A stretch of 64,000 nt of DNA from Gloeobacter kilaueensis JS1 (GCF_000484535.1 NC_022600.1:2232001-2296000); one strand, 5' to 3'. Counted from the stretch's first letter, positions 40,008 to 51,280 are shown. Notes: generated by a model not told the origin, from the sequence alone. Translations and numbers: made by a program.

Positions 40008-40673
40008 GTGAAGACGCTCCTTGCTGCGCTGACGCTGCTTCTGCCCTGGCCGGTGCGCCGGTGGGTGCTGGTGCGCTTCTGGGGCTACCGGATCGACCCG
40101 ACCAGCCGCATCGGCCTTGCCTGGATCTTTCCGCGCCGCCTGGTGCTGGCGGCCCACAGCCAGATCGGCCACCTGAACGTCTGCAGGGGACTCGACGAGC
40201 TGCGCCTCGAAGAACACGCCCGAATTGGCCGCCTCAACTGGATCAGCGGTTTTCCGGCGAGGCCCGACCGCCACTTTGCCCACCAGCCGGAGCGCTCGCC
40301 GCGCCTCGTCCTGGGCCGCCACGCCGCGATCACCCACCGCCACCTCATCGACTGCACCGACACGGTTCGCCTGGGCAACCACGCAATCTTGGGAGGGTAC
40401 CGCTCGCAGGTGCTCACCCACGCCATCGACCTCGAGCGGGGCCGCCAGCACGCTGCCCCGGTGCAGATCGGCAACTACTGTTTTGTCGGCACCAGCTGCG
40501 TGTTGCTGGGAGGCAGCCGCCTGCCCGACCATTCAGTACTTGGGGCGATGAGCCTGCTCAAGGACGCCTTCAGCGAGGAGTACACCCTCTACGCCGGTGT
40601 GCCCGCGACGGCGCGCAAGAACCTCGGCACAGACTGGAAGTACTTTTCGCGGCCAGAAGGCTACGTCTGGTAG
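40008..40673 (+). CDS. Hexapeptide-repeat acyltransferase
   Basis: 221 residues with a GTG start at 40008. After an N-terminal hydrophobic/basic segment, left-handed beta-helix repeats run through the middle (RLEEHARIGRLNWI, LGRHAAITHRHLID, LGNHAILGGYR, IGNYCFVGTSCVLLGGSRLPDHSVLGAMSLL). The catalytic-type His is suggested by LTHAIDLERG. Such LbH acyltransferases add acetyl groups to sugars of surface polysaccharides. The next gene, six bases downstream, encodes a second hexapeptide acyltransferase, so a polysaccharide-modifying operon is likely. Confidence 0.82.
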   Translation: MKTLLAALTLLLPWPVRRWVLVRFWGYRIDPTSRIGLAWIFPRRLVLAAHSQIGHLNVCRGLDELRLEEHARIGRLNWISGFPARPDRHFAHQPERSPRLVLGRHAAITHRHLIDCTDTVRLGNHAILGGYRSQVLTHAIDLERGRQHAAPVQIGNYCFVGTSCVLLGGSRLPDHSVLGAMSLLKDAFSEEYTLYAGVPATARKNLGTDWKYFSRPEGYVW

Positions 40674-40679
40674 GTGGCG

Positions 40680-41237
40680 ATGTCCGGCATCCTCGAAGGC
40701 AACGACCCTTACACCCAGCCCAGTTTCAGCCGGGCGAACCGGCTTGGGCGGCTCGTCTGGGGGCTGGTCCGGCTGGTGGCCTTTCGATTTAGCCCCCGGC
40801 CCCTGCACGCCTGGCGGGCCTTCGTGCTGCGCTGCTTTGGGGCAAAGCTGGGCCGGGGCTGCCACATCTATCCGGGGGTCAAGATCTGGGCTCCCTGGAA
40901 CCTCGAGTGCGGCGACTACGTGGGTATCGCCGACGGCGTCACCCTCTACAACCAGGATCGAATTGCGATCGGCAGCCGGGCAACGATCTCCCAGGGTTCG
41001 CACCTCTGCACGGGTACCCACGACTACACCCGGCCCCACTTTCCGCTTCGTACTGCGCCGATTGCCGTCGGGGATTGCGCCTGGATCTGTGCGGAGGTGT
41101 TCATCCATCCGGGGGTGCGGGTGGGTGAAGGAACCGTGGTCGGTGCCCGCGCCGTCGTCACCGCCGATCTGCCCGCCTGGACTGTCTGCGCCGGTCATCC
41201 CTGCCGGGTGCTCAAGCTGCGCCCGAGGTGGGAATAA
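40680..41237 (+). CDS. WcaF-like hexapeptide acetyltransferase
   Basis: 185 residues from the ATG at 40680. The order FRFSPRPLHAWRAFVLRCFGAKLGRGCHIYPGVKIWAPWNL, then ATISQGSHLCTGTHDYTRPHFPL, then VFIHPGVRVGEGTVVGARAVV, is that of the WcaF branch of colanic-acid-type acetyltransferases; the His in THDY is the catalytic one. It probably O-acetylates an exopolysaccharide or O-antigen sugar. The stop converges on the end of the nucleotidyltransferase gene, one base apart, which marks the left border of the RiPP-like cluster. Confidence 0.88.
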   Translation: MSGILEGNDPYTQPSFSRANRLGRLVWGLVRLVAFRFSPRPLHAWRAFVLRCFGAKLGRGCHIYPGVKIWAPWNLECGDYVGIADGVTLYNQDRIAIGSRATISQGSHLCTGTHDYTRPHFPLRTAPIAVGDCAWICAEVFIHPGVRVGEGTVVGARAVVTADLPAWTVCAGHPCRVLKLRPRWE

Positions 41238-41238
41238 C

Positions 41239-42384
41239 CTATTCGACCCGGCGCAGGCCGCGCAACCAGCGGTAGGGGTAATAGAAGGGCACCAGCGACC
41301 GGTGGGCAATTCCGTAGCGCTCCTGCATGTACTCCGCGTCTGGAAACAGGGCTCGCCGGACAAGCTGCCACTTCTGCCGCCAACGGATGACCCCCGAAAG
41401 ATCCGCAAGCAGGCGCTGGGCGCGGGTCCGCTCGCCGGGGGCGAGGGCACCGAAGGCGCGCAGTTCAGTAGCAGTGACTCGCAGGGCGCGCAGGTCTTCG
41501 ACGATTCCCCGAGGCACCGGCACCGCCCAATCGGTGGCCAGCTGCAAAAGGGTGCGCTGCAGCGGCAGCACCAGGCTGTTGCCTTGCGCTTGCTCCAGGA
41601 GCACTTCCCAGTCCAGATCCTGTCCGCAGCGGACAAGCAGCTCGGCAATATCCTGCAGCCAAAGAAGGGAGCGGCCTCCGTGGTGCAACTGCAGGTGGGC
41701 GCACAGGTAGAGCACTTCTGCTTCGAGGCCCAGCACCAGGGCCATCCGATCGCCGATGGGGCTGCGGCGGGCCGTTTGCCAGAACCACTCGCCCGCGAGG
41801 GCCCGCTGATAATAATTGGGGCCGATGAGCCGCCAGTGCAGATCGACGTAGACATCCACCAGCCCCCGCCTGTGCAGCGATTCCTCGTTGCGGAAGGCGG
41901 CGTTGAATCCAGTCGCGATCTCCGTGCGGGTAGGAGCGAAGTGCAGCGCTTTGAGCACCTGGCGCGCCACCGGCAAAGCAGCGGGACGGATGAGCAGATC
42001 GAGATCCTGCATGGGCCGCACGGCGATGTCGCCGTAGAGGCGTTCGGCCAGCGCCGCTCCTTTGAGAACGATCACCTCCACCTGCGCCCCTGCCAGCGCC
42101 TGGAGGATGTCTGCCAGGGCAGCAAACAGCAGCGCGTTGCGGCAGGCGTTGCGCCGGTAGGCCACTTCCCACTCCGCTTCGACGGCGGCAGGAACGAGCG
42201 CCTGGTGGTGGACGACGCTGTAGAGCAGGGGGCCCAGGGCTTCTGAATTCACGATCTGACAGCAGCGCTCCCAGTCGAGGGGCGGCTGGTCACGGGCCAA
42301 TTCCAGCGCCTCCGGCTCCCAGCGCCCGCGCAGGCAGAGCACCAGCCACCGGGTCAGTTCTTCGTCCACCGCAGGCACCGGCAT
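41239..42384 (-). CDS. Nucleotidyltransferase-fold protein (NTP_transf_5-like) of the RiPP cluster
   Basis: 381 residues. The nucleotidyltransferase core is at about 103-132: VIVLKGAALAERLYGDIAVR PMQDLDLLI, with K108-G109 and D127/D129 as likely phosphate and metal ligands. This family is repeatedly found in lasso-peptide and related RiPP clusters together with HPr-kinase-like proteins. Published work on pseudomycoidin-type lasso peptides implicates such a protein in modifying a phosphate installed by the kinase. Here it is the last gene of a minus-strand operon, starting six bases after the methyltransferase gene. The substrate in this cluster is inferred, not shown. Confidence 0.8.
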   Translation of the reverse strand: MPVPAVDEELTRWLVLCLRGRWEPEALELARDQPPLDWERCCQIVNSEALGPLLYSVVHHQALVPAAVEAEWEVAYRRNACRNALLFAALADILQALAGAQVEVIVLKGAALAERLYGDIAVRPMQDLDLLIRPAALPVARQVLKALHFAPTRTEIATGFNAAFRNEESLHRRGLVDVYVDLHWRLIGPNYYQRALAGEWFWQTARRSPIGDRMALVLGLEAEVLYLCAHLQLHHGGRSLLWLQDIAELLVRCGQDLDWEVLLEQAQGNSLVLPLQRTLLQLATDWAVPVPRGIVEDLRALRVTATELRAFGALAPGERTRAQRLLADLSGVIRWRQKWQLVRRALFPDAEYMQERYGIAHRSLVPFYYPYRWLRGLRRVE

Positions 42385-42390
42385 GGGCTA

Positions 42391-43521
42391 CTACTGTCCG
42401 TACTTCTGGGCCAGTTCACCGACGCGGGCCAGACTGTCTTGAAGGCGGTCGAAGCGGCCAGGAAAGTGCTGCGCCAGGCGGCGGGCAATCGCTTCGAGGG
42501 TGAGCTGGCCGTCCATCTGTTCGAGGATGAACCGGTCGATCTTGCCTTCTTCGCCCAGGCTGGGCACGGAATCCGCCGCCTGCCGCCGCAGCCGCTCCAG
42601 CGAAAGGGGCATCCCGTAAAAGGTGGACTGGCGAAAGCTCATCTTTTCGATCTGGCTGTCCCAGCGCCAGATATATTCTCCCCCGACCAGTCTGGCGCTG
42701 AGTTGAACAACGATCGTGTCGCCGACAGCGACATTCACCGGTTCGGACCAGGGCAGAAAGCCGCTGCCGTAGATCGTGGTCGGCTGGGCTGTGCCGGGGC
42801 GGTTACAAAAGCCAATGCCGGGAGCGAGCACGGCGTCGAACCAGAGCAAGAGCCCGTGGGCGGTGCCGGACCGGGTCACCTGCCAGCGCAGTTCACCCTC
42901 GACGTCGCTGGTTTCGACGGTTCTGTAATCGAGGGTGGCCCAACGCTCGGGCGGGGCGAGCAACTGCTCCGGGCCGACCGGGCCGTGGTGAAAGCTGTTG
43001 CGCACGATGGGCAGGGCGGCCCGCAGATCGAGGTTGTGGCAGTTGTCCGTCCAGGGCAGTGTGCAGGAGTGGTAGAGGGCTTCGGACTCGATGATCGCTG
43101 CCCAGAGCACGTCCTGCTCGGGAATGAGTGCCCCATCGGGTGCCAGAAAGCGCCGCCGCGCATCGATGATCGTCGGCAGATGGTTGCGAAAAAGCGGCAG
43201 CGCCCCGCGCAGGTCCGAGACGATCAGATCGGCGCGCTCCGGCAACTGCACCGCGTTCGACCAGTTCTGGAGAAATTCGATGCGATCCGCGCAACCGGCG
43301 GCCACAGCAACCTCCTGCGCCAGGGCGATCGTATCGTCCGCCTCGATGGCGTAGACCCGACGCGCCCCGAAGCGGCAGGCGAGCACCGCAAAGACGCCGG
43401 TGCCGGTGCCGATGTCCACGACCACCGCCCCAGGCGTCACCCGTTGCCGCAACGCCCGCTCGTAGGCGCGCGAGCGCACCCCATCGGCGATCATCTGGCC
43501 ATGATTTAAAAGGACGTACAT
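42391..43521 (-). CDS. PRMT-like SAM methyltransferase with a C-terminal PqqD-like segment
   Basis: 376 residues. SAM motif I is VVVDIGTGTGVFAV (D36-G42), with acidic post-II residue E60 (VYAIEADD). The fold after about 150 is beta-rich, as in protein-arginine methyltransferases (GYFLLYE-like double-E loop is replaced by SDLRGALPLF, so the canonical catalytic Glu pair is not conserved). From about residue 317 the text (EEGKIDRFILEQMDGQLTLEAIARRLAQHF) has the look of a PqqD winged-helix, the fold that binds RiPP leader peptides. It probably methylates the cluster's peptide, with the tail recruiting the leader (inference). Its ATG directly follows the PhyH stop (TAGATG). Confidence 0.78.
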   Translation of the reverse strand: MYVLLNHGQMIADGVRSRAYERALRQRVTPGAVVVDIGTGTGVFAVLACRFGARRVYAIEADDTIALAQEVAVAAGCADRIEFLQNWSNAVQLPERADLIVSDLRGALPLFRNHLPTIIDARRRFLAPDGALIPEQDVLWAAIIESEALYHSCTLPWTDNCHNLDLRAALPIVRNSFHHGPVGPEQLLAPPERWATLDYRTVETSDVEGELRWQVTRSGTAHGLLLWFDAVLAPGIGFCNRPGTAQPTTIYGSGFLPWSEPVNVAVGDTIVVQLSARLVGGEYIWRWDSQIEKMSFRQSTFYGMPLSLERLRRQAADSVPSLGEEGKIDRFILEQMDGQLTLEAIARRLAQHFPGRFDRLQDSLARVGELAQKYGQ

Positions 43522-44463
43522 CTAAGATCCGGCCCGCTCGCACAGGTGTTGCGCCAGATCAAGATAGCGGATCAGCCGCACCTCGTTGCGGTAGTAGTCG
43601 AGAATCGCCCGCCCGATCAGCCCCAGGCGCTCGGCGAACGGGGGCAGACCGGCTGTGGGATCAAAAAGGGGCCGCTCGCGGGCGGTGGGTTCTTCTTGAG
43701 CGGCGAGAAATTCGGTAGAAAAACTGAGGCGCGGCTCGCCTGTCCCATCGGATTTGCCTCCCCAGTGCAACAGCTCGCCGTCCCAGATGAGCGCTGCACC
43801 GGCAGCTACCGGCAGGGCGCGGCTGTGGTGCAGCAGGGCGAGCAGCGTTTCTTTTGTGAGCATCTGCAGATCATCGCGCCAGCTTCCCACTGGCGCATTT
43901 TTCGGAACGGCGTAGAGGCAGCCGTTTGCGGGTGTGGCAGGGCTGAGCGCCATCCAGACAGTCACCCGTCCCGTCCTGTCCGGATAGTCCTGGTGGGGAG
44001 GCCAGCCGCCTGCCCCCGGCAGGGCAGGAACGGCGTGAAACCAGAAGTTCGCACTCTGGCGGTAGCCGCTGCCGAGAATGGAACCGAGCAGCGCCGCCAG
44101 CTTCGGTAGCTGGGGCACCTGCCAGAAAGCGTCGTAGACGAAGGCGAACACCGGCGGCCAGTCCTCGCGCTGCAGCAGGAGGGCGCAGCGGTGCATCGCC
44201 TCCAGCAGCGGCGGCGGCAAAGCGGACTCGACCTGCAGGTAACCGGCGCTCCCAAACTGGGCAAGCAGCGCTCCCTGGTGTTCTGGCAGGAGGGCTGCGG
44301 TTTCGCTATCCGGCAGAGGGGACGTTCCGGCAACGGAAAGCTGGGGCTGGAGGGTGCGCCAGTAATCGATCGACAGCGCCTGCTCCAGCTTGCGGGCGAC
44401 CAGCCTGTCGTCCAGGCGCGCGCCTGCAAGAAGTTGCCGGGCGAGTTGCCCATCTATACCCAT
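43522..44463 (-). CDS. PhyH-family (phytanoyl-CoA dioxygenase-like) 2OG/Fe(II) oxygenase of the RiPP cluster
   Basis: 313 residues from the ATG at 44463; a much longer open frame reaching 45567 is only the shadow of the upstream kinase gene. Iron ligands are H157 and D159 in PPHQDYPDR and H233 in LLHWGGK, with R245 (GEPRLSFS) to bind 2-oxoglutarate. The ligand text WMALSPATPANGCLYAVPKNA is typical of PhyH hydroxylases. It overlaps the preceding kinase-like gene by ten bases and is likely to hydroxylate, desaturate or oxidise the peptide or a cofactor-linked residue. The operon position makes a tailoring role the simplest reading. Confidence 0.82.
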   Translation of the reverse strand: MGIDGQLARQLLAGARLDDRLVARKLEQALSIDYWRTLQPQLSVAGTSPLPDSETAALLPEHQGALLAQFGSAGYLQVESALPPPLLEAMHRCALLLQREDWPPVFAFVYDAFWQVPQLPKLAALLGSILGSGYRQSANFWFHAVPALPGAGGWPPHQDYPDRTGRVTVWMALSPATPANGCLYAVPKNAPVGSWRDDLQMLTKETLLALLHHSRALPVAAGAALIWDGELLHWGGKSDGTGEPRLSFSTEFLAAQEEPTARERPLFDPTAGLPPFAERLGLIGRAILDYYRNEVRLIRYLDLAQHLCERAGS

Positions 44464-45440
44464 GCCCGACTCCGCTGCAGCGCCTCGAAATCTTGCAAAA
44501 TCGCATCGCCCAGCCCGGTCAATCCTGGCCCTCCAGGGCGGGAGGAGACGCAGCGCAGCGGTACCGCTTCCGCCAGTTGGGCGAGCTGAACGAATTGCTG
44601 GGCGCGCATCGCTCTGGTGTGCAGACGACTTACCCAGCTTTCGGCGAGCAGAGCGGGCCAGATGGTCTGAAAGGAAGCAGGCTCGATCCGGGTCGTCGGC
44701 GCGGGTTGTCTCAGCCAGTAGATAGCGGCGACGGGCAGTGGCTGGCGGGCATACCGGCAACCGTTCTGGCGCAGGTCGAGGTCGAGGTGGTCGCCGTCCG
44801 GCGCAGGGATCAGCTGGAGTGTAAATCCCTGCAGCTGGGCGAGCAGCGGCGCGGCTGTGGGCCGCAGGCGCAGCCAGGGCGTGCCCGGCTGGGCAATGAA
44901 GTGATCGCCCTGTTGCCCCAGCGCCACCAGATCGTCCGCCAGTACCGGGTAGCCCCGCGCCGCCAGCGCCGCCGCCAGCGTCGATTTGCCGCTCCCCTCC
45001 GCTCCCAGCAAAAGTAGTGCCCGATCGCCCACGACCACTGCCCCAGCGTGCAGCGCGATCGTCCCCCTTAGGCCCAGCACCAGGGCGAGGAGCGAACCGA
45101 GTAGATAATCCGTTGCCGCCTGAAAACCGGCAGATGCGGGCCAGGTTGCCCAGACCTGGGTGCCGACCCGATCGAGCAGAAACTCGACCCCGTCGCCGTA
45201 GCGCAGGCGCAGATAGACATCGCCCACCTCCCAGCCGACGAGCACCGGCTGGCCATTCCGGTGCCGGTAGGGGCTGGTGTACCAGCGCTTCTGAGACAGC
45301 TCTCCCATCCCCTGCGGCCAGCAACCGAGCTGGATCTGGACATCCACCGGCTCGCTTCCGGCAGCCAGAATATCCAGATTGGCGACGGGCCGGTTCACCC
45401 GCAGGCGCAGGCCAAAGATCCGATGCAAAACCGCTGTCAC
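44454..45440 (-). CDS. HPr-kinase-like protein 2 of the RiPP cluster
   Basis: 328 residues from the GTG at 45440, which overlaps the stop of the preceding gene (GTGA, four bases) and has GGGAGA six bases upstream. The kinase core shows IALHAGAVVVGDRALLLLGAEGSGKSTLAAAL, with Walker A GAEGSGKS at 146-153 and the acidic motif LADDLV at 168-170. The N-terminal 100 residues are shared with its paralogue (FLLDRVG.QVWATWPA). Enzymes of this type phosphorylate a Ser of lasso peptides (paeninodin-like). It looks active, with a complete P-loop. Confidence 0.85.
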   Translation of the reverse strand: MTAVLHRIFGLRLRVNRPVANLDILAAGSEPVDVQIQLGCWPQGMGELSQKRWYTSPYRHRNGQPVLVGWEVGDVYLRLRYGDGVEFLLDRVGTQVWATWPASAGFQAATDYLLGSLLALVLGLRGTIALHAGAVVVGDRALLLLGAEGSGKSTLAAALAARGYPVLADDLVALGQQGDHFIAQPGTPWLRLRPTAAPLLAQLQGFTLQLIPAPDGDHLDLDLRQNGCRYARQPLPVAAIYWLRQPAPTTRIEPASFQTIWPALLAESWVSRLHTRAMRAQQFVQLAQLAEAVPLRCVSSRPGGPGLTGLGDAILQDFEALQRSRAWV

Positions 45441-46477
45441 CGGCACTCTCCCAAAGCTGCAGTCGCTTCGAGAATCCGATCGCACAACTGGTCGAGGCGG
45501 GCCGGGTCGCTGTGGGGGTGGAGCCACAGGGGCGGCATCTGCTCGCTGAGCCGGGCGAGCAGGTCAAATTCTTGCTCGCGCATCGCTCTATTCAGCAGGC
45601 GGGCAGCGTAGGTATTCCCCACCAGGGCGATCAGCCCTTGCTGGCCCATTGCAGGGGTGATCCGGGGTGCAGTAGCGTCTGGATGCCGTTCAGCGAGCAG
45701 ATAAAGCGCGCCCAATGGCAGCGGCTCCGCCCAGAAGCGGTAGCCGTTTTGCTGAAGATCGAGGTGCAGCCGTCTTTCTCCCTGGGCCTCCGGCAGCGCA
45801 AGCGCCTCACCGGCAGCGCAGGCAAGCATCGTCAGGGCGGTGGGCCGCAGCCTGAGACGCGGATAGCCCGGCTGCACCAGAAAGTGCGTCCCGCCATCGA
45901 CCAGCGGCACGATGTCATCGGAGAGCACCGCCAGACCGCGTCTGGCCAGGGCCGCTGCCAGAGTGGATTTGCCCGCCTCCGCCGGGCCGACGAAGACGAC
46001 CGCCCGGCCTGCAATGGCGACAGCGCTGGCGTGGAGGGCAACCGTTCCCCGCAGCCGCAAAAGAAAACCGAACACCGGACCGAGCAGGTAGGTGAGCGCG
46101 TCCGCCTCGGTGAGGGTGGCTGGCCACCAGGCCCAGAGGCGGCTGCCAGTGCGATCGAGAAGAAACTCGGCTCCGTCGCTGTAGGCGAAGTGGACATGCC
46201 CATCCAGCCGTTCCCAGACGATCAGGGCCGTCCTGCCGCCCTCGTCGCGGTAAGGGCTGAGATAGACCGGCGGCGGTGCGGTGGCCATCTCCCGATCGAG
46301 CCACTCCGGACGAGCGGCCAGTTCGATCGTCAGATCCGCCGGACCGGTGGCCACACTCGCGGCCAGGGCGGGAATGGGCCGGTTGGAGGCAATTTTCAGG
46401 CCATAGGCGCTGTACAACCGGGCGGCTGCATCTTCGACTCGCCCGGCGGCGCTGCCCCGCTCCGTAGCGCCCGTCAT
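45437..46477 (-). CDS. HPr-kinase-like protein 1 of the RiPP cluster
   Basis: 346 residues. The paralogous layout is clear: FLLDRTGSRLWAWWPATLTEADALTYLLG, then VALHASAVAIAGRAVVFVGPAEAGKSTLAAALA, with Walker A GPAEAGKS (164-171) and SDDIV (187-190). It begins six bases after the precursor gene's stop. Two HPr-kinase-like copies in one cluster are unusual; they may act on different residues or form a heteromer. Phosphorylation of a core Ser/Thr is inferred from the paeninodin-type kinases. The P-loop lacks the usual GxxGSGKS glycine (GPAEAGKS), so activity may differ from its sister. Confidence 0.85.
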   Translation of the reverse strand: MTGATERGSAAGRVEDAAARLYSAYGLKIASNRPIPALAASVATGPADLTIELAARPEWLDREMATAPPPVYLSPYRDEGGRTALIVWERLDGHVHFAYSDGAEFLLDRTGSRLWAWWPATLTEADALTYLLGPVFGFLLRLRGTVALHASAVAIAGRAVVFVGPAEAGKSTLAAALARRGLAVLSDDIVPLVDGGTHFLVQPGYPRLRLRPTALTMLACAAGEALALPEAQGERRLHLDLQQNGYRFWAEPLPLGALYLLAERHPDATAPRITPAMGQQGLIALVGNTYAARLLNRAMREQEFDLLARLSEQMPPLWLHPHSDPARLDQLCDRILEATAALGECR

Positions 46478-46482
46478 CTTCG

Positions 46483-46623
46483 CTAGACAGCTGTCTTTAC
46501 TCTGTTGCTGTCTTTTCGGCCCTTGCGATCAGAAGTTCCCTGGGTGATCGTGCGGATATCGCCGTAGACGTGCAACTGGGGAGGCTGGTACGGTTTTTTC
46601 TCCGGCGGCGCTGGCTCGCTCAT
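46483..46623 (-). CDS. Lasso-type RiPP precursor peptide
   Basis: 46 residues. The ATG at 46623 overlaps the asparagine-synthetase-like gene's TGA (ATGA) and has a near-ideal AGGAG six bases ahead. The leader starts MSEPAPPEKK and contains PYQPPQLHVYGDIRTITQ, which fits the lasso-leader rule YxxPxLxxxGxxxxxT exactly (Y12, P15, L17, G21, T27). The core would be G29 to V46, beginning GTSDRKGRKDSN and ending RVKTAV: basic, no Cys, with Ser/Thr at core 2, 3, 11 and 16. Asp occurs only at core 4 and 10, so no acceptor lies at the usual ring positions 7-9. The downstream kinases, oxygenase and methyltransferase fit a tailored product. The leader call is strong; the product class is open. Confidence 0.85.
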   Translation of the reverse strand: MSEPAPPEKKPYQPPQLHVYGDIRTITQGTSDRKGRKDSNRVKTAV

Positions 46624-48431
46624 GGTCTGCTCCTGGTAGGTATCGGGACGGACGGAACGGTGTATTTCAACCAGTAATTCAGGGCAATCAATCTTCGTCT
46701 TTTCTGGATTGTATCGTTCAGCTCATCGCAGGTCGTCCCCTGGATCAGTGTAGAAACGATCGTCATGTCCACGTACTCTCCCAGCCGGGCGACCGGCAGG
46801 GCGTCGCCCAGCACCCAGGGAGCGTAGGGATGGACAGGACGGGCCGCCAGGGGAGTTTTGGGCCGTTGCCGCACCGCCTCCGGCAGCCGATCGCCCATCG
46901 CCTCACGCAACAGTTGCTTGTGAACGCACCAGGGCACAGGCGGGATCGCCAGCAAAAATTCGAGCAGGCGCAGGTCGAAGAAAGGATGGCGCACCTCGAC
47001 GGGGATATGGGTCCAGGCCGGATCGTAGCTTTCAAACAGGCTCGGCCAGAACGGATCGCGGAGCATTCTATGTAGTCTGGGGCGAAAGGGATGCACTGCC
47101 GGTGGATTGCTGCTCAGTTGCCGCCAGCGCCCCGGCAGATCCAGGCGGGCAGCGAAGTCCCTGTTGAGCCAGTCGGGATAGCCTGCCGGTTCCTGCCTGC
47201 GGAGGCTTTTTAAAAAGGTGCGGATACCGAGGGGCGGCAGGCGGCCATGCTCCACCAGATAACTGCCGATCGTTCCGGCGGCGCGCCTGATCCCGCCCTG
47301 CCTGAGCAGGTACAGGCCGTAGGTGTTCTCGGCACAGAAGGCAGAATCGCCCCCCTGGCCGGTGAGGAGCACCCGGCCACCGCTGGCCGCTATCTGGCGG
47401 CACTGATCGGCGTCGATGAGCCAGAGCGGATGGTCGCAGGGCTCGGGCAGGTAGCCCTCCAGCCGGTCCCAGCCCTCGAAGGCGCAGTAGCGATCGGCGA
47501 TCTGGTAGTGGACGGCGATCTCCAGGTGCCGGGCGGCCAGAGCGGCCCAGTGGCGCTCACTATCGGGGATGAGCCGGTCGTAGACGCAGGTGTGGGCCCA
47601 GAGGCGAGAAGCATTCCCCTGCCGAGATAGCAGGGTTCTGGCCGTAGCCGCCACCGAGGTCGAATCCATGCCACCGCTCATCGAGATGGCGACGGGCCCG
47701 TCCCCAAGCCGGTCCCCCACCGCCCGGTCGAACAGTTCTCGAAAGTGCTCGATGTAATCGCCGCGACGACGGTAAAAAATCGGCTCAGCGACCGGCAGCT
47801 CCCAGTAGCGGCTGATGCGGACCGGCTGTCTGGGCTGCCAGCCGAGCGTGTGAGCCGGGGGCAACCTGCGGATGGCAGCGAAGGGGGTGATATCCAGTTG
47901 CTGGGGACAGCCAAACAGTAGAAAGTCGGCAACCGCCAGCTCATCGATCCGATTGCTCAAGGCCGGGTGCAGCCGCAGAGCCGCCAGCTCGCTGCTGAAG
48001 AGCAAGCTCTGACCTACCTGGGTATAAAAAAAAGGTTTGACTCCCAGCTGATCGCGGGCACAAAACAGGCTGCCATCCCAGATGGCGAAGGCAAAATCGC
48101 CCAGCAGGTGCGTGGCGCACCCTTCACCCCAGCGGCGGTAGGCGCTAAGAATCAGCTCGGCATCCGAAAGCGGCGCTTTTACTGCCAGTTTCTCGGCCAG
48201 CTCCGCCCGCCCGTCTAGGCGCGCATCCGCCACGATCCAGAGTGGAGCGCCTGCAAAGCACCCTCCACTGCTCTGGCCGGACTGGCTGAAACCAAAGCCC
48301 ACCGGCCCCGTCAGCCTGCTTTGCTGCCCATCCGGACCCCGGTGGGCAAGGGCTCTCACTAGTTGCTCTAACAATCGGCGGTCGGCGGGAGCGCCGTCCA
48401 GGTTGAGAATACCAGCAATACCGCCACTCAT
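46620..48431 (-). CDS. Asparagine-synthetase-like lasso cyclase (C protein)
   Basis: 603 residues. The Ntn domain starts MSGGIAGILN; the catalytic Cys2 of glutamine-dependent enzymes (MCGIAG) is absent, so it cannot use glutamine. The ATP-pyrophosphatase motif is S252-G-G-M-D-S257 (AISMSGGMDSTSV), with GGRVLLTGQGGDSAF downstream. In lasso biosynthesis the C protein adenylates an Asp/Glu side chain and forms the macrolactam. It precedes the precursor with a four-base overlap. Identity as a lasso-type cyclase is inferred from the leader motif and PqqD partner; alone it would be called an AsnB-like protein. Confidence 0.85.
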   Translation of the reverse strand: MSGGIAGILNLDGAPADRRLLEQLVRALAHRGPDGQQSRLTGPVGFGFSQSGQSSGGCFAGAPLWIVADARLDGRAELAEKLAVKAPLSDAELILSAYRRWGEGCATHLLGDFAFAIWDGSLFCARDQLGVKPFFYTQVGQSLLFSSELAALRLHPALSNRIDELAVADFLLFGCPQQLDITPFAAIRRLPPAHTLGWQPRQPVRISRYWELPVAEPIFYRRRGDYIEHFRELFDRAVGDRLGDGPVAISMSGGMDSTSVAATARTLLSRQGNASRLWAHTCVYDRLIPDSERHWAALAARHLEIAVHYQIADRYCAFEGWDRLEGYLPEPCDHPLWLIDADQCRQIAASGGRVLLTGQGGDSAFCAENTYGLYLLRQGGIRRAAGTIGSYLVEHGRLPPLGIRTFLKSLRRQEPAGYPDWLNRDFAARLDLPGRWRQLSSNPPAVHPFRPRLHRMLRDPFWPSLFESYDPAWTHIPVEVRHPFFDLRLLEFLLAIPPVPWCVHKQLLREAMGDRLPEAVRQRPKTPLAARPVHPYAPWVLGDALPVARLGEYVDMTIVSTLIQGTTCDELNDTIQKRRRLIALNYWLKYTVPSVPIPTRSRP

Positions 48432-48512
48432 CGCCGTGGAAGGATGGCGCGATCGAAGGCGGCTACGAACAGTCCTCTCGCTGGTCCAGGTAGACGAAAG
48501 AAGCGGCGGGCC

Positions 48513-48788
48513 CTATTCATCGCTCGTCTCCAACAGACCGTGTCTCACCAGTTCGGCAATCAAGTTCAGGGCGTCCTGCCGCAGGACAGCCGCCTCCACG
48601 TCGTACTCGCCCAGGAGCAATGTGCAGGCTGCCTCGACCGACTCGGAAGTGGTCAGCACTTCCCACATGCGGGTGCCGACCGCATCGAGGCCAAAGTACT
48701 GTTCGCTGCGCAAACTGAGCAGCACAGACTCGGTCTTGAGCCGGCGCACGAGAACATCGGCAGGTAGGGACACTCGCATGGAGACCAT
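48513..48788 (-). CDS. PqqD-like RiPP recognition protein (lasso B1)
   Basis: 91 residues from the ATG at 48788; an ATG at 48779 is also possible. The PqqD/RRE fold is plain: SVLLSLRSEQYFGLDAVGTRMWEVLTTSESVEAACTLLLGEYDV, with the hydrophobic strand and helix that bind a leader peptide. In lasso systems the B1 protein binds the YxxP leader and hands it to the B2 peptidase and C cyclase. It is the first gene of the operon, 81 bases ahead of the cyclase gene, with a 122-base divergent region to the glycosyltransferase. That 81-base gap is too short to hold a B2 protein. Confidence 0.85.
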   Translation of the reverse strand: MVSMRVSLPADVLVRRLKTESVLLSLRSEQYFGLDAVGTRMWEVLTTSESVEAACTLLLGEYDVEAAVLRQDALNLIAELVRHGLLETSDE

Positions 48789-48910
48789 CGAGGCGCTGTC
48801 TCTGTGCAGCCCTCCTCGATCATTGTTTCGGAGAAATCTGAGAATGGCAATCAACATCCCTTAACAATCGGGGCGAGTCGCAGTGCAACAATAAGAAGGC
48901 GTCATCGCAC

Positions 48911-49750
48911 TTGCGCCTGGCCGTGGCCGTCTCGATCGTCATTCTTACCCTCAACGAAGCGGCGGATCTGCCCGGTTGTCTGGAGTCGATCGGCTGGTGC
49001 GACGACATTCACCTCGTCGATTCCGGCAGCTGCGACGGAACGCTCGAACTGGCCGTCGCCGCCGGAGTACGCTGCTACGAGCATCCCTTCAGTTCTTTTG
49101 GCAAGCAACGCAACTGGGCTCTCGATCACTGCCAGTTCGCCCACGAGTGGATCTTGTTTCTGGATGCGGACGAGAGAGCGACGCCCGCCTTTGCCCGCGC
49201 AATCGAGGGGGCAACGGCAGCCGCTGGAGCTTCTATCGCCGGTTATTACTGCTGCTGGAAGCTCATGCTGGACGGGCATTGGCTCAGGCGCACCGACGGC
49301 TTTCCGCGCTGGCAGTTTCGCCTGCTGCGCTGGGGCCGGGTGCGCTTTTGCGACTTTGGCCACGGCCAGAAAGAAGACCGCGTCCAGGGACAGCTCGCCT
49401 ACCTGAGCGAACCGTACCTGCACTACGCCTTCAGCAAGGGCTGGGGGCAGTGGCTGAGCCGCCACAACCGCTACTCCGATCTGGAGGCTGCCGAGCGGTT
49501 GCGCGCCAATGTTTCCTGGCAGGAATTGCTTGCCCGCGACCCTTCGGTGCGCAACAAAGCCCTCAAACCGCTGCTCAGCCGCCTGCCCGGCTGGCCCTTG
49601 TGGCGGTTTTTGATCATGTATGTTTTCAAGCTGGGCTTTCTTGAGGGGCGAGCGGCCCTCACCTACTGCATTCACCTGGCGTACTACGAGTTTTTAATCC
49701 AGGTAAAGATGGACGAATTGCGCCGAGGCCGCTGTCTGGACAGAACCTGA
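48911..49750 (+). CDS. Family 2 glycosyltransferase (WaaE/KdtX-like)
   Basis: 279 residues, TTG start at 48911 (AAGAAGG upstream; a GTG at 48923 is possible). VSIVILTLNEAADLPGCLESI is the GT2 nucleotide-sugar site, DSGSCDGT and LFLDADERAT carry the acidic DxD-type motif, and QLAYLSEPYLHYAFSKG fits LPS-core beta-glucosyltransferases. It transfers a sugar to LPS core or a polysaccharide chain at the inner membrane. It is divergent from the RiPP operon and precedes the WcaI-like gene by about 220 bases, suggesting one polysaccharide locus with the acetyltransferases at 40 kb. Confidence 0.88.
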   Translation: MRLAVAVSIVILTLNEAADLPGCLESIGWCDDIHLVDSGSCDGTLELAVAAGVRCYEHPFSSFGKQRNWALDHCQFAHEWILFLDADERATPAFARAIEGATAAAGASIAGYYCCWKLMLDGHWLRRTDGFPRWQFRLLRWGRVRFCDFGHGQKEDRVQGQLAYLSEPYLHYAFSKGWGQWLSRHNRYSDLEAAERLRANVSWQELLARDPSVRNKALKPLLSRLPGWPLWRFLIMYVFKLGFLEGRAALTYCIHLAYYEFLIQVKMDELRRGRCLDRT

Positions 49751-49972
49751 AGCGGGCTATCGTCAGCGATTTTTGACTTTGTCACCCAAAAGCACCTGTC
49801 TCCCCCGTTCGTGCTTCCGTCCCGACTTTGATTCCTGTACGCTTCATAAAGATAACCGGCAACTGTCCTGTGGGCATTTGCCAGAGGTCGGTCAGTTTAT
49901 GCTCCTGGCTTGCGAACAAAATTCGCTGAAAACTGTTCAGCCAGCCCCTCCCGTTGTTTCCCTCCAGTTCCC

Positions 49973-51280
49973 ATGCGTATCCTCATTTATGGCATCAACT
50001 ATTTCCCCGAACTGACGGGCGTCGGCAAGTACACCGGCGAGATGGCGGAGTGGCTGGCCGCCCAGGGGCATCAGGTGCGCGTCGTCACCGCCCCTCCCCA
50101 CTATCCCGCCTGGCGGGTGGCCAAAGGTTACAGCCCCTGGCGCTACAGCCGTACATGCCAGGCGGGCGTCGAGGTGTTCCGCTGTCCTGTCTGGCTCAAA
50201 ACCCAGCCCACCGGCGTCGAGCGGCTGGTTCACCTGCTGTCGTTCGCCCTTACAAGCCTGCCGGTGATGCTCGCCCAGGTGTTCTGGAAGCCGGAGGTGG
50301 TGCTCACGATCGAGCCGCCGCTTTTGGCGGCCCCGACGGCGCTGCTGGTAGCCCGGCTCTCAGGAGCCCATAGCTGGCTGCACATTCAAGATCACGAGGT
50401 AGACGCCGCCTTCGAGTTGCAGTCACTGCCAGGAGGGGGCCGTCTACAGCGCACGGCGGTGGGCTTCGAGCGCTGGTTGCTCAAACATTTCGATCGCCTC
50501 TCGACCCTGTCGCTCCAGATGCTCGAGCGGGCAGTCGGCAAAGGGGTCGAGCGCGAACGGATCGGTCTATTTCCCAACTGGGTCGATACGGGCCGGATTC
50601 ATCCCGATATCTCAGCTGATGCATTGCGCCGCGAGCTGGGGCTTACAGCCGAGGATCTGGTGGTGCTCTACTCGGGCAATATGGGCGGCAAACAGGGACT
50701 CGATCTGTTGCTGGCAGCGGCAGACAGGCTGCCACGGGTGCAGTTCGTCCTCTGTGGCGACGGCACAGCCCGCCGCCGCCTGAAGAGTGAAAGCTGTCGT
50801 CTGGCCCTCGCCAATGTCCATTTTTTGCCCCTACAGCCGACCGAGCGGCTGGGCGAATTGCTCAATCTGGCCGACATCCACGCCCTGATCCAGCGCGATC
50901 AGGCCGCCGACCTGGTCATGCCCTCCAAACTGGCGGGCATGATGGCGAGTGGCCGGGCGGTGATCGCCACCGCCCGCCCCGGCACCGCCGTGGCGACGAT
51001 GGTCACCGCTTCTGCCTGCGGGGCGCTGGTGCCCCCCGAAAATGTCGATGCGTTCGTGCTGGCGGTGCAGGAGCTGGCCGCTGCCCCGAGGCTGCGCCGC
51101 GAAATGGGGCGCAATGGCCGCAACTGGGCACGGGACTATCTAGCTAAGGGACTGATTTTAAGTCAGTTCACAGCTCAACTCCTCCAGCTTTGCAGCGGCA
51201 CTGTACCGCTTGTGATCCCCGATGCTGGGCTTGAGGAGGCTTCTGGTACACTGAGGACCGCGGACGTAGATGGAGAATGA
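49973..51280 (+). CDS. WcaI-like family 4 glycosyltransferase
   Basis: 435 residues from the ATG at 49973; the open frame upstream is unconserved. MRILIYGINYFPELTGVGKY begins the GT-B fold, HYPAWRVAKGY and WLHIQDHEVDAAFEL follow, and the donor-binding half shows YSGNMGGKQGLDLLL and the E-like ending VMPSKLAGMMASGRAVIATA. This is the order of WcaI, the fucosyl/colanic-acid-type glycosyltransferase. It probably extends an exopolysaccharide repeat at the cytosolic face. glpX follows nine bases downstream; coupling is plausible but the functions are unrelated. Confidence 0.88.
   Translation: MRILIYGINYFPELTGVGKYTGEMAEWLAAQGHQVRVVTAPPHYPAWRVAKGYSPWRYSRTCQAGVEVFRCPVWLKTQPTGVERLVHLLSFALTSLPVMLAQVFWKPEVVLTIEPPLLAAPTALLVARLSGAHSWLHIQDHEVDAAFELQSLPGGGRLQRTAVGFERWLLKHFDRLSTLSLQMLERAVGKGVERERIGLFPNWVDTGRIHPDISADALRRELGLTAEDLVVLYSGNMGGKQGLDLLLAAADRLPRVQFVLCGDGTARRRLKSESCRLALANVHFLPLQPTERLGELLNLADIHALIQRDQAADLVMPSKLAGMMASGRAVIATARPGTAVATMVTASACGALVPPENVDAFVLAVQELAAAPRLRREMGRNGRNWARDYLAKGLILSQFTAQLLQLCSGTVPLVIPDAGLEEASGTLRTADVDGE

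Follow-up and report, generated by a model that had tools for sequence, protein, structure and literature searches.

How can a lasso-type gene cluster work when the only leader peptidase found in its genome lies elsewhere, and is the set of tailoring genes that accompanies its cyclase peculiar to one genome or shared by a family? Both questions are raised by a locus of Gloeobacter kilaueensis JS1, whose closed genome comprises 4,724,791 bp (PMC3806779). The locus lies in a stretch of 64,000 nucleotides (GCF_000484535.1 NC_022600.1:2232001-2296000), here called the window, from whose first letter positions are counted. An initial annotation had described eight minus-strand genes at 41239-48788 as a lasso-type RiPP cluster with an unusual combination of tailoring enzymes. 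We put the probability at roughly 0.7 that these genes belong to a two-locus lasso pathway of class II (no disulfides) that represents a sub-family not described before, and we infer the product, chemistry, step order and substrates of that pathway from sequence.

All eight open reading frames are present on the minus strand, and Pfam and NCBIfam searches back the family named for each. They begin at 41239, as annotated, and end at 48857 rather than 48788; packing is tight, the spacing between genes ranging from -91 to +81 nt, and the start of the PhyH reading frame is corrected to the ATG at 44463. The features are:

41239..42384, minus strand: N, NTP_transf_5 (PsmN-like) protein, 381 aa (Pfam NTP_transf_5, 9.4e-50)
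42391..43521, minus strand: M, PRMT-fold methyltransferase, 376 aa, with a C-terminal helical domain at 324-376 (PrmA/PRMT_C; profile, AF2, Foldseek)
42391..42555, minus strand: C-terminal domain of M, faintly PqqD/B1-like (hhalign against shuffles; Pfam PqqD; Foldseek)
43522..44463, minus strand: O, PhyH-type Fe(II)/2-oxoglutarate oxygenase, 313 aa, HxD...H...R intact (Pfam PhyH, 5e-10)
44454..45527, minus strand: K2, second HPr-kinase-like protein, 357 aa, H / GKST / DD intact (TIGR04352, 1.2e-10)
45437..46477, minus strand: K1, HPr-kinase-like lasso kinase, 346 aa, H / GKST / DD intact (TIGR04352, 1.8e-9)
46483..46623, minus strand: A, precursor, 46 aa, leader MSEPAPPEKKPYQPPQLHVYGDIRTITQ and core GTSDRKGRKDSNRVKTAV (lasso_leader_L3 over cut-off; lasso_cyano 8.6e-7; leader motif)
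46486..46539, minus strand: predicted core, 18 residues (putative cleavage site; Asp10; KT at 15-16)
46620..48431, minus strand: C, AsnB-like lasso cyclase, 603 aa (NF033535, 4.7e-95; GATase_7 and Asn_synthase, the latter 1.6e-32)
48513..48857, minus strand: B1, PqqD-like RiPP recognition element, 114 aa (Pfam PqqD, 1.8e-15; NCBIfam lasso_PqqD_Bac, 1.6e-12)

That this is a lasso-type RiPP cluster with kinase and nucleotidyltransferase holds up on several counts: leader motif, cyclase, recognition element, kinase, NTP_transf_5 protein and recurring gene order. The recognition element B1 is 42-56% identical to the B1 proteins of the nearest related loci, while C combines the GATase and synthetase domains of an AsnB-like cyclase and matches the lasso cyclase model NF033535 at the E-value listed, yet under its strict cut-off. 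The precursor scores over the cut-off of lasso_leader_L3 NF033521 (20.5 bits against 19) and under that of lasso_cyano NF033528 (28.8 bits against 33). Its leader carries the YxxPxL motif with Tyr at -17, Pro at -14 and Leu at -12, the register reported for such leaders (PMC10368454), together with Thr at -2. A hidden second precursor was ruled out, as lasso_cyano finds none in the genome at E up to 1.

In the register set by Thr-2, Asp10 is the first acidic residue that could close the ring, and on this motif register a ten-residue ring is predicted for the window's product; ring size is only a prediction because cleavage one residue later would restore the ring Asp to position 9. Within the clade, the ring acid stands at position 9 in 26 precursors, at 8 in seven and at 10 in another seven, the last being those of L008, L014, L015, L019, L100, L117 and the window, all loci with a methyltransferase. 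Known natural lasso rings have 7-9 residues and a ring of ten has been produced in vitro (PMC8498205), such that a natural ten-residue ring, if true, would extend the known range. We consider it improbable that the AsnB homologue makes no lasso at all, performing instead a plain macrolactam closure or amide ligation on a peptide with a YxxPxL leader. The short ring residues (Gly/Thr/Ser), the 10-residue spacing and a core with no obvious bulky plug would suit such a product, but the leader, B1, B2 and C each fit lasso models, and the position of the ring Asp, at 8-10, is conserved over the clade.

The gene set extends well beyond this genome. A contig scan with the cyclase yielded 80 loci, and relatives of C, 38-47% identical, occur in at least six phyla. 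The closest loci (L007-L045) have the order B1-(B2)-C-A-K-(M)-(ABC transporter)-(N) and come from cyanobacteria, Acidobacteria, Gammaproteobacteria, a 'Deltaproteobacterium', Rokubacteria and Chloroflexi. Because the same gene order recurs in relatives from several phyla, the cluster is not a chance assembly; the genes are co-located elsewhere, as a cluster reading demands, and the relatives carry a homologous precursor at the equivalent place. Among 34 loci whose sequence extends 4 kb or more past C on the downstream side, 21 carry M, and in most of these phyla it shares about 50% identity with the protein of the window. Its presence or absence changes six times on the cyclase tree, which points to a long association with some losses. 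Judging from these loci, a PRMT-like gene with one kinase and NTP_transf_5 is a family trait. The claim of an unusual combination therefore stands for the PhyH gene and the tandem kinase pair, found only here, and falls for the remainder, which recurs.

Two components that occur in this gene order are missing from 41239-48857, and the initial annotation was silent on both: no ABC transporter gene was found there, and no match to the leader peptidase B2 (PF13471). The sole PF13471 match in the genome lies at 3206846-3207133 (G000:C1), 0.93 Mb from the cluster, within a B1'-B2-N' cassette (G000:C1:3205334-3207510; L002:8335-10511). That the cassette is a lasso cluster of its own was rejected, there being no cyclase or precursor around it, and a genome search found no second cyclase of the window's kind for it to serve. 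The C-terminal part of the cassette's NTP protein (YPAVFCHKEGPGGQASCWVELNGRIVHAW) resembles by eye a degenerate second B2 domain; B2-N fusions have been noted before (PMC8498205).

Comparable arrangements occur in other genomes, where the distant B2 is often accompanied by B1 but not by C. In one genome (G014) C-A-K-M-(ABC)-N and B1-B2 are on different contigs, the latter in the interior of its contig; a second (G017) has C-A-K and B1-B2 apart; G229 and a Roseofilum locus (L010) keep B1 in cis with a solitary B2 elsewhere; and G008, of the same order as the window's genome, has A-A-K-M-..-N with B2-B1 (L123) and its nearest cyclase homologue on a different contig (L124). Among 36 loci with upstream coverage, 22 have B1 and B2, six B1 only and six neither. 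Clusters with B2 in cis include those of Phormidium (L007) and Acidobacteria (L016, L039). B2 is found elsewhere in 10 of the 11 clade genomes examined that have none beside C, as against 25 of 244 cyanobacteria sampled. The comparison is approximate: the eleven include genomes from outside the cyanobacteria, and in some cases the distant B2 belongs to a second lasso cluster. Among the split genomes only the window's is closed, and contig breaks limit the reading of the others, though several matches lie well inside contigs.

This co-occurrence makes it likely that the pathway is split and that B2 acts for the window's cyclase from the distant locus, while some distant B2 genes may serve another lasso cluster. 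A B2 gene within the cluster would be a usual rather than a strictly defining lasso feature, given pseudomycoidin. That example also inspires an alternative, which we regard as unlikely: C and host proteases might make the lasso without a leader peptidase, leaving the distant cassette to serve something else. Synthesis of pseudomycoidin without leader and leader peptidase is reported in the title of Zyubko et al. 2019, as cited in PMC8498205, and the cluster here retains its own B1 while the cassette has its own B1 and N. Set against this are the roughly ten-fold enrichment of B2, on an approximate base rate, in clade genomes that lack it in cis, and a genome with neither a second cyclase of this kind nor a second lasso_cyano precursor. 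A peptidase in trans would lead cluster-based mining to class pathways of this kind as incomplete, and it predicts further orphan cyclases that pair with distant peptidases.

The genomic setting suggests another view of the missing genes. The cluster occupies a lineage-specific stretch between polysaccharide-type genes: neither C nor B2 was found in the three genus mates searched, and synteny with them ends at about 51241. Hexapeptide acyltransferases (one of them WcaF-like) and two glycosyltransferases flank it on the plus strand at 40008-41237 and 48911-51280, embedding it in an apparent polysaccharide region that does not adjoin the conserved FBPase gene in the genus mates. A decaying or non-functional import, which would have shed B2 and the ABC transporter and in which the second kinase and the PhyH gene would reflect drift, would agree with this restricted occurrence in a single isolate and with the absence of a transporter. 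We give this view low odds, since the eight reading frames are intact and tightly packed, catalytic motifs are kept in K1, K2 and the PhyH protein, and other genomes show the same split.

A profile of M (METHYLTRANSFERASE) built from 19 members matches the structures of PRMT2, 6, 8, 1 and CARM1 with E down to 3e-53, and an AlphaFold2 model (pLDDT 88.9) retrieves PRMT6 and PRMT1 in Foldseek, at TM values (by target length) as high as 0.85; both the SAM domain and the barrel of the PRMT fold are present. The residues that characterize PRMTs are a different matter. In the window the double-E loop reads SD-LRG-...-LFR, SE(x8)E having become SD(x8)R; in relatives, Gln or Gly mostly stands in place of the second Glu, and Asn or Arg also occurs; and no THW loop was found in M. 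With double-E and THW both wanting, an arginine target is not supported by residues: M is a PRMT by fold that fails the residue test for arginine methylation.

The C-terminal 53 residues of M form three helices, and a PqqD-like domain is suggested here by the profile signal, which is real against shuffles. In hhalign this domain scores 22.7 against the B1 profile, where 300 column-shuffled B1 profiles reach at most 19.4. The other indications are weak: Pfam PqqD matches 4 of the 19 members, the direct hhalign probability is 4.6%, and Foldseek places PqqD 3g2b fourth and a lasso B1 twenty-first with non-significant E-values (E 1.5). Leader docking through this domain is a reasonable idea. It bears on the proposal, which we think distinctly improbable, that M and/or the kinases act on some other protein, such as one involved in immunity or regulation, and are co-located for self-protection or regulation. 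The altered double-E of M and a second kinase for which no obvious second core site exists would accord with such a role; the retention of M next to A and K in six phyla or more, and the resemblance of its C-terminal domain to B1, speak for the precursor as substrate.

No paper joining a PRMT to lasso peptides was found in the literature searched (subscription papers and preprints lay outside its scope), and the methyltransferase sections of a 2022 lasso-modification review and of a 2026 review name no PRMT-type enzyme. The lasso methylations described in those parts of the reviews are carboxyl O-methylation and an isoaspartyl-type step forming aspartimides. M beside a kinase is thus a recurrent sub-family, undescribed in the lasso literature searched. 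A PRMT-fold enzyme conserved with lasso genes over at least six phyla would constitute a new tailoring class, and the clade offers natural variants with and without M, ready for testing. PRMT-like genes of the same or a neighbouring family also occur in cyanobacteria away from lasso genes (L118, L120, L121 and L122).

Kinases are nearly universal among the related clusters. The matches of K1 and K2 to the HprK-related kinase model TIGR04352 both fall below cut-off; aligned with about 40 cluster kinases, each keeps LHA, GKST and DD, that is, the His, P-loop Lys and Asp-Asp of HPr-like kinases. Within the kinase set the closest relative of K2 is K1, at 43% identity, and the pair has therefore likely arisen by duplication within this lineage. 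Close tandem kinase paralogues occur only in the window among the related lasso loci compared; L011 was scored as having two kinases, the second of which is only distantly homologous (2e-22), lies on the opposite strand and is no tandem copy. N has its NTP_transf_5 domain next to the kinases, as in the PsmN type, a likeness that rests on the family domain.

Lasso kinases phosphorylate the precursor, usually at a C-terminal Ser (PMC9266682). In this clade the candidate site is a (K/R)(T/S) dipeptide behind the ring, present in 20 of 23 M-associated tails, whereas shuffled tails average 5.9 and never reach 20 in 1000 trials; members of the same clade without M have it in 11 of 18 tails (4.8 expected), and other lasso clades collected in 10 of 60 (10.3 by chance). 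These counts come from related sequences and hence are not independent events. The dipeptide was rejected as a signature of M: it is also enriched in Acidobacteria of the same clade that lack M, and because it occurs without M it cannot be assigned to that enzyme. It is likely a kinase/methyltransferase site. On the simplest reading, its Thr/Ser would be the site of phosphorylation and PsmN-type glycosylation, and its basic residue would serve recognition and/or methylation.

The PhyH protein shows the metal triad HxD...H and the 2-oxoglutarate-binding Arg, as PHQD ... LHWGGKS ... PRLS, when aligned with four cyanobacterial relatives. It was rejected as a family trait: no homologue is present in any of the related lasso loci compared, and its relatives, found in 4 of 243 other cyanobacterial genomes, stand alone, none of them near lasso genes.

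From these components we propose the following pathway. B1 would bind the YxxPxL leader and present the precursor. On the linear precursor, K1/K2 would phosphorylate the Thr/Ser of (K/R)(T/S) near the C-terminus, N would add a hexose (or nucleotide) to the tail phosphate, M would methylate the precursor, most probably at the dipeptide or beside it and possibly docking by its PqqD-like domain, and the PhyH enzyme would hydroxylate a core residue, all before folding. B2, acting in trans, would then cut after Gln28 to release the leader, and C would close a macrolactam between Gly1 and Asp10 (Thr and Asp9 for a cleavage one residue later). Unmodified, this macrolactam has a calculated mass of 1956.061 Da as the 18-mer, or 1899.040 Da as the 17-mer of the later cleavage; series at +79.966, +162.053, +14.016 and +15.995 would be expected for modified forms. 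There is precedent for a kinase that phosphorylates the linear precursor, for PsmN adding hexose to the phosphate and for CanB1 helping a 2-oxoglutarate-dependent hydroxylase (PMC9266682, PMC8498205). A fuller version of this scheme is tentative, and we would sooner doubt than assert it: a PRMT-fold enzyme stripped of its arginine-gripping residues would be a lasso N-methyltransferase that docks the leader by its own B1-like domain and acts at a phospho-glycosylated (K/R)(T/S), in lassos with ten-residue rings and a leader peptidase in trans.

Lasso clusters with a kinase and NTP_transf_5 are already known (pseudomycoidin, bsf). The pseudomycoidin (psm) cluster of Bacillus pseudomycoides shares B1, C, A, an HPr-like kinase and the NTP_transf_5-like PsmN; its product has a phospho-glycosylated tail, and its leader peptidase is reported to be dispensable (PMC8498205, PMC9266682). 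Unlike the window, it has one kinase, no methyltransferase and no PhyH enzyme, carries B2 in the cluster, and is modified on the C-terminal Ser, whereas the (K/R)(T/S) site of the window's clade lies at or a few residues before the end. Clusters of the paeninodin/ThcoK type likewise have an HPr-like kinase with the H-K-D-D residues that acts on the precursor, but a single one, and no M, N or oxygenase. The bsf cluster of Bradymonas sediminis has A-B1-B2-C-D with kinase and nucleotidyltransferase and YxxPxL at -17 to -12, and differs in Ile at -2, an 8-residue ring, phosphorylation of a ring Ser, and the absence of M and PhyH (PMC10368454).

A 2-oxoglutarate hydroxylase or a methyltransferase is also found in the clusters of canucin A (CanE, likened here by description), StspM/LasF and LihM/TceM. 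StspM/LasF are carboxyl O-methyltransferases and LihM/TceM isoaspartyl methyltransferases; unlike M, neither has the PRMT fold. Eukaryotic PRMT1/2/6 share with M the whole SAM domain and PRMT beta-barrel, at the E-values and TM given above, and differ from it in their unaltered double-E, their THW loop and their lack of the extra C-terminal helical domain.

The cyanobacterial lasso family NF033528/NF033535 has the leader type and cyclase family of the window, and includes most Nostocales B1-B2-C-A-K-..-N clusters (L046-L086), which differ in their long tails without (K/R)(T/S) and in having no PRMT-like gene. Two further cyanobacterial arrangements were observed. Oscillatoria sp. PCC 10802 (L018, 12-22 kb) carries two divergent lasso clusters in a span of some 10 kb that includes two copies of B2 and two almost identical precursors, and in Moorena (L063, L081) four to six tandem lasso precursors follow one cyclase.
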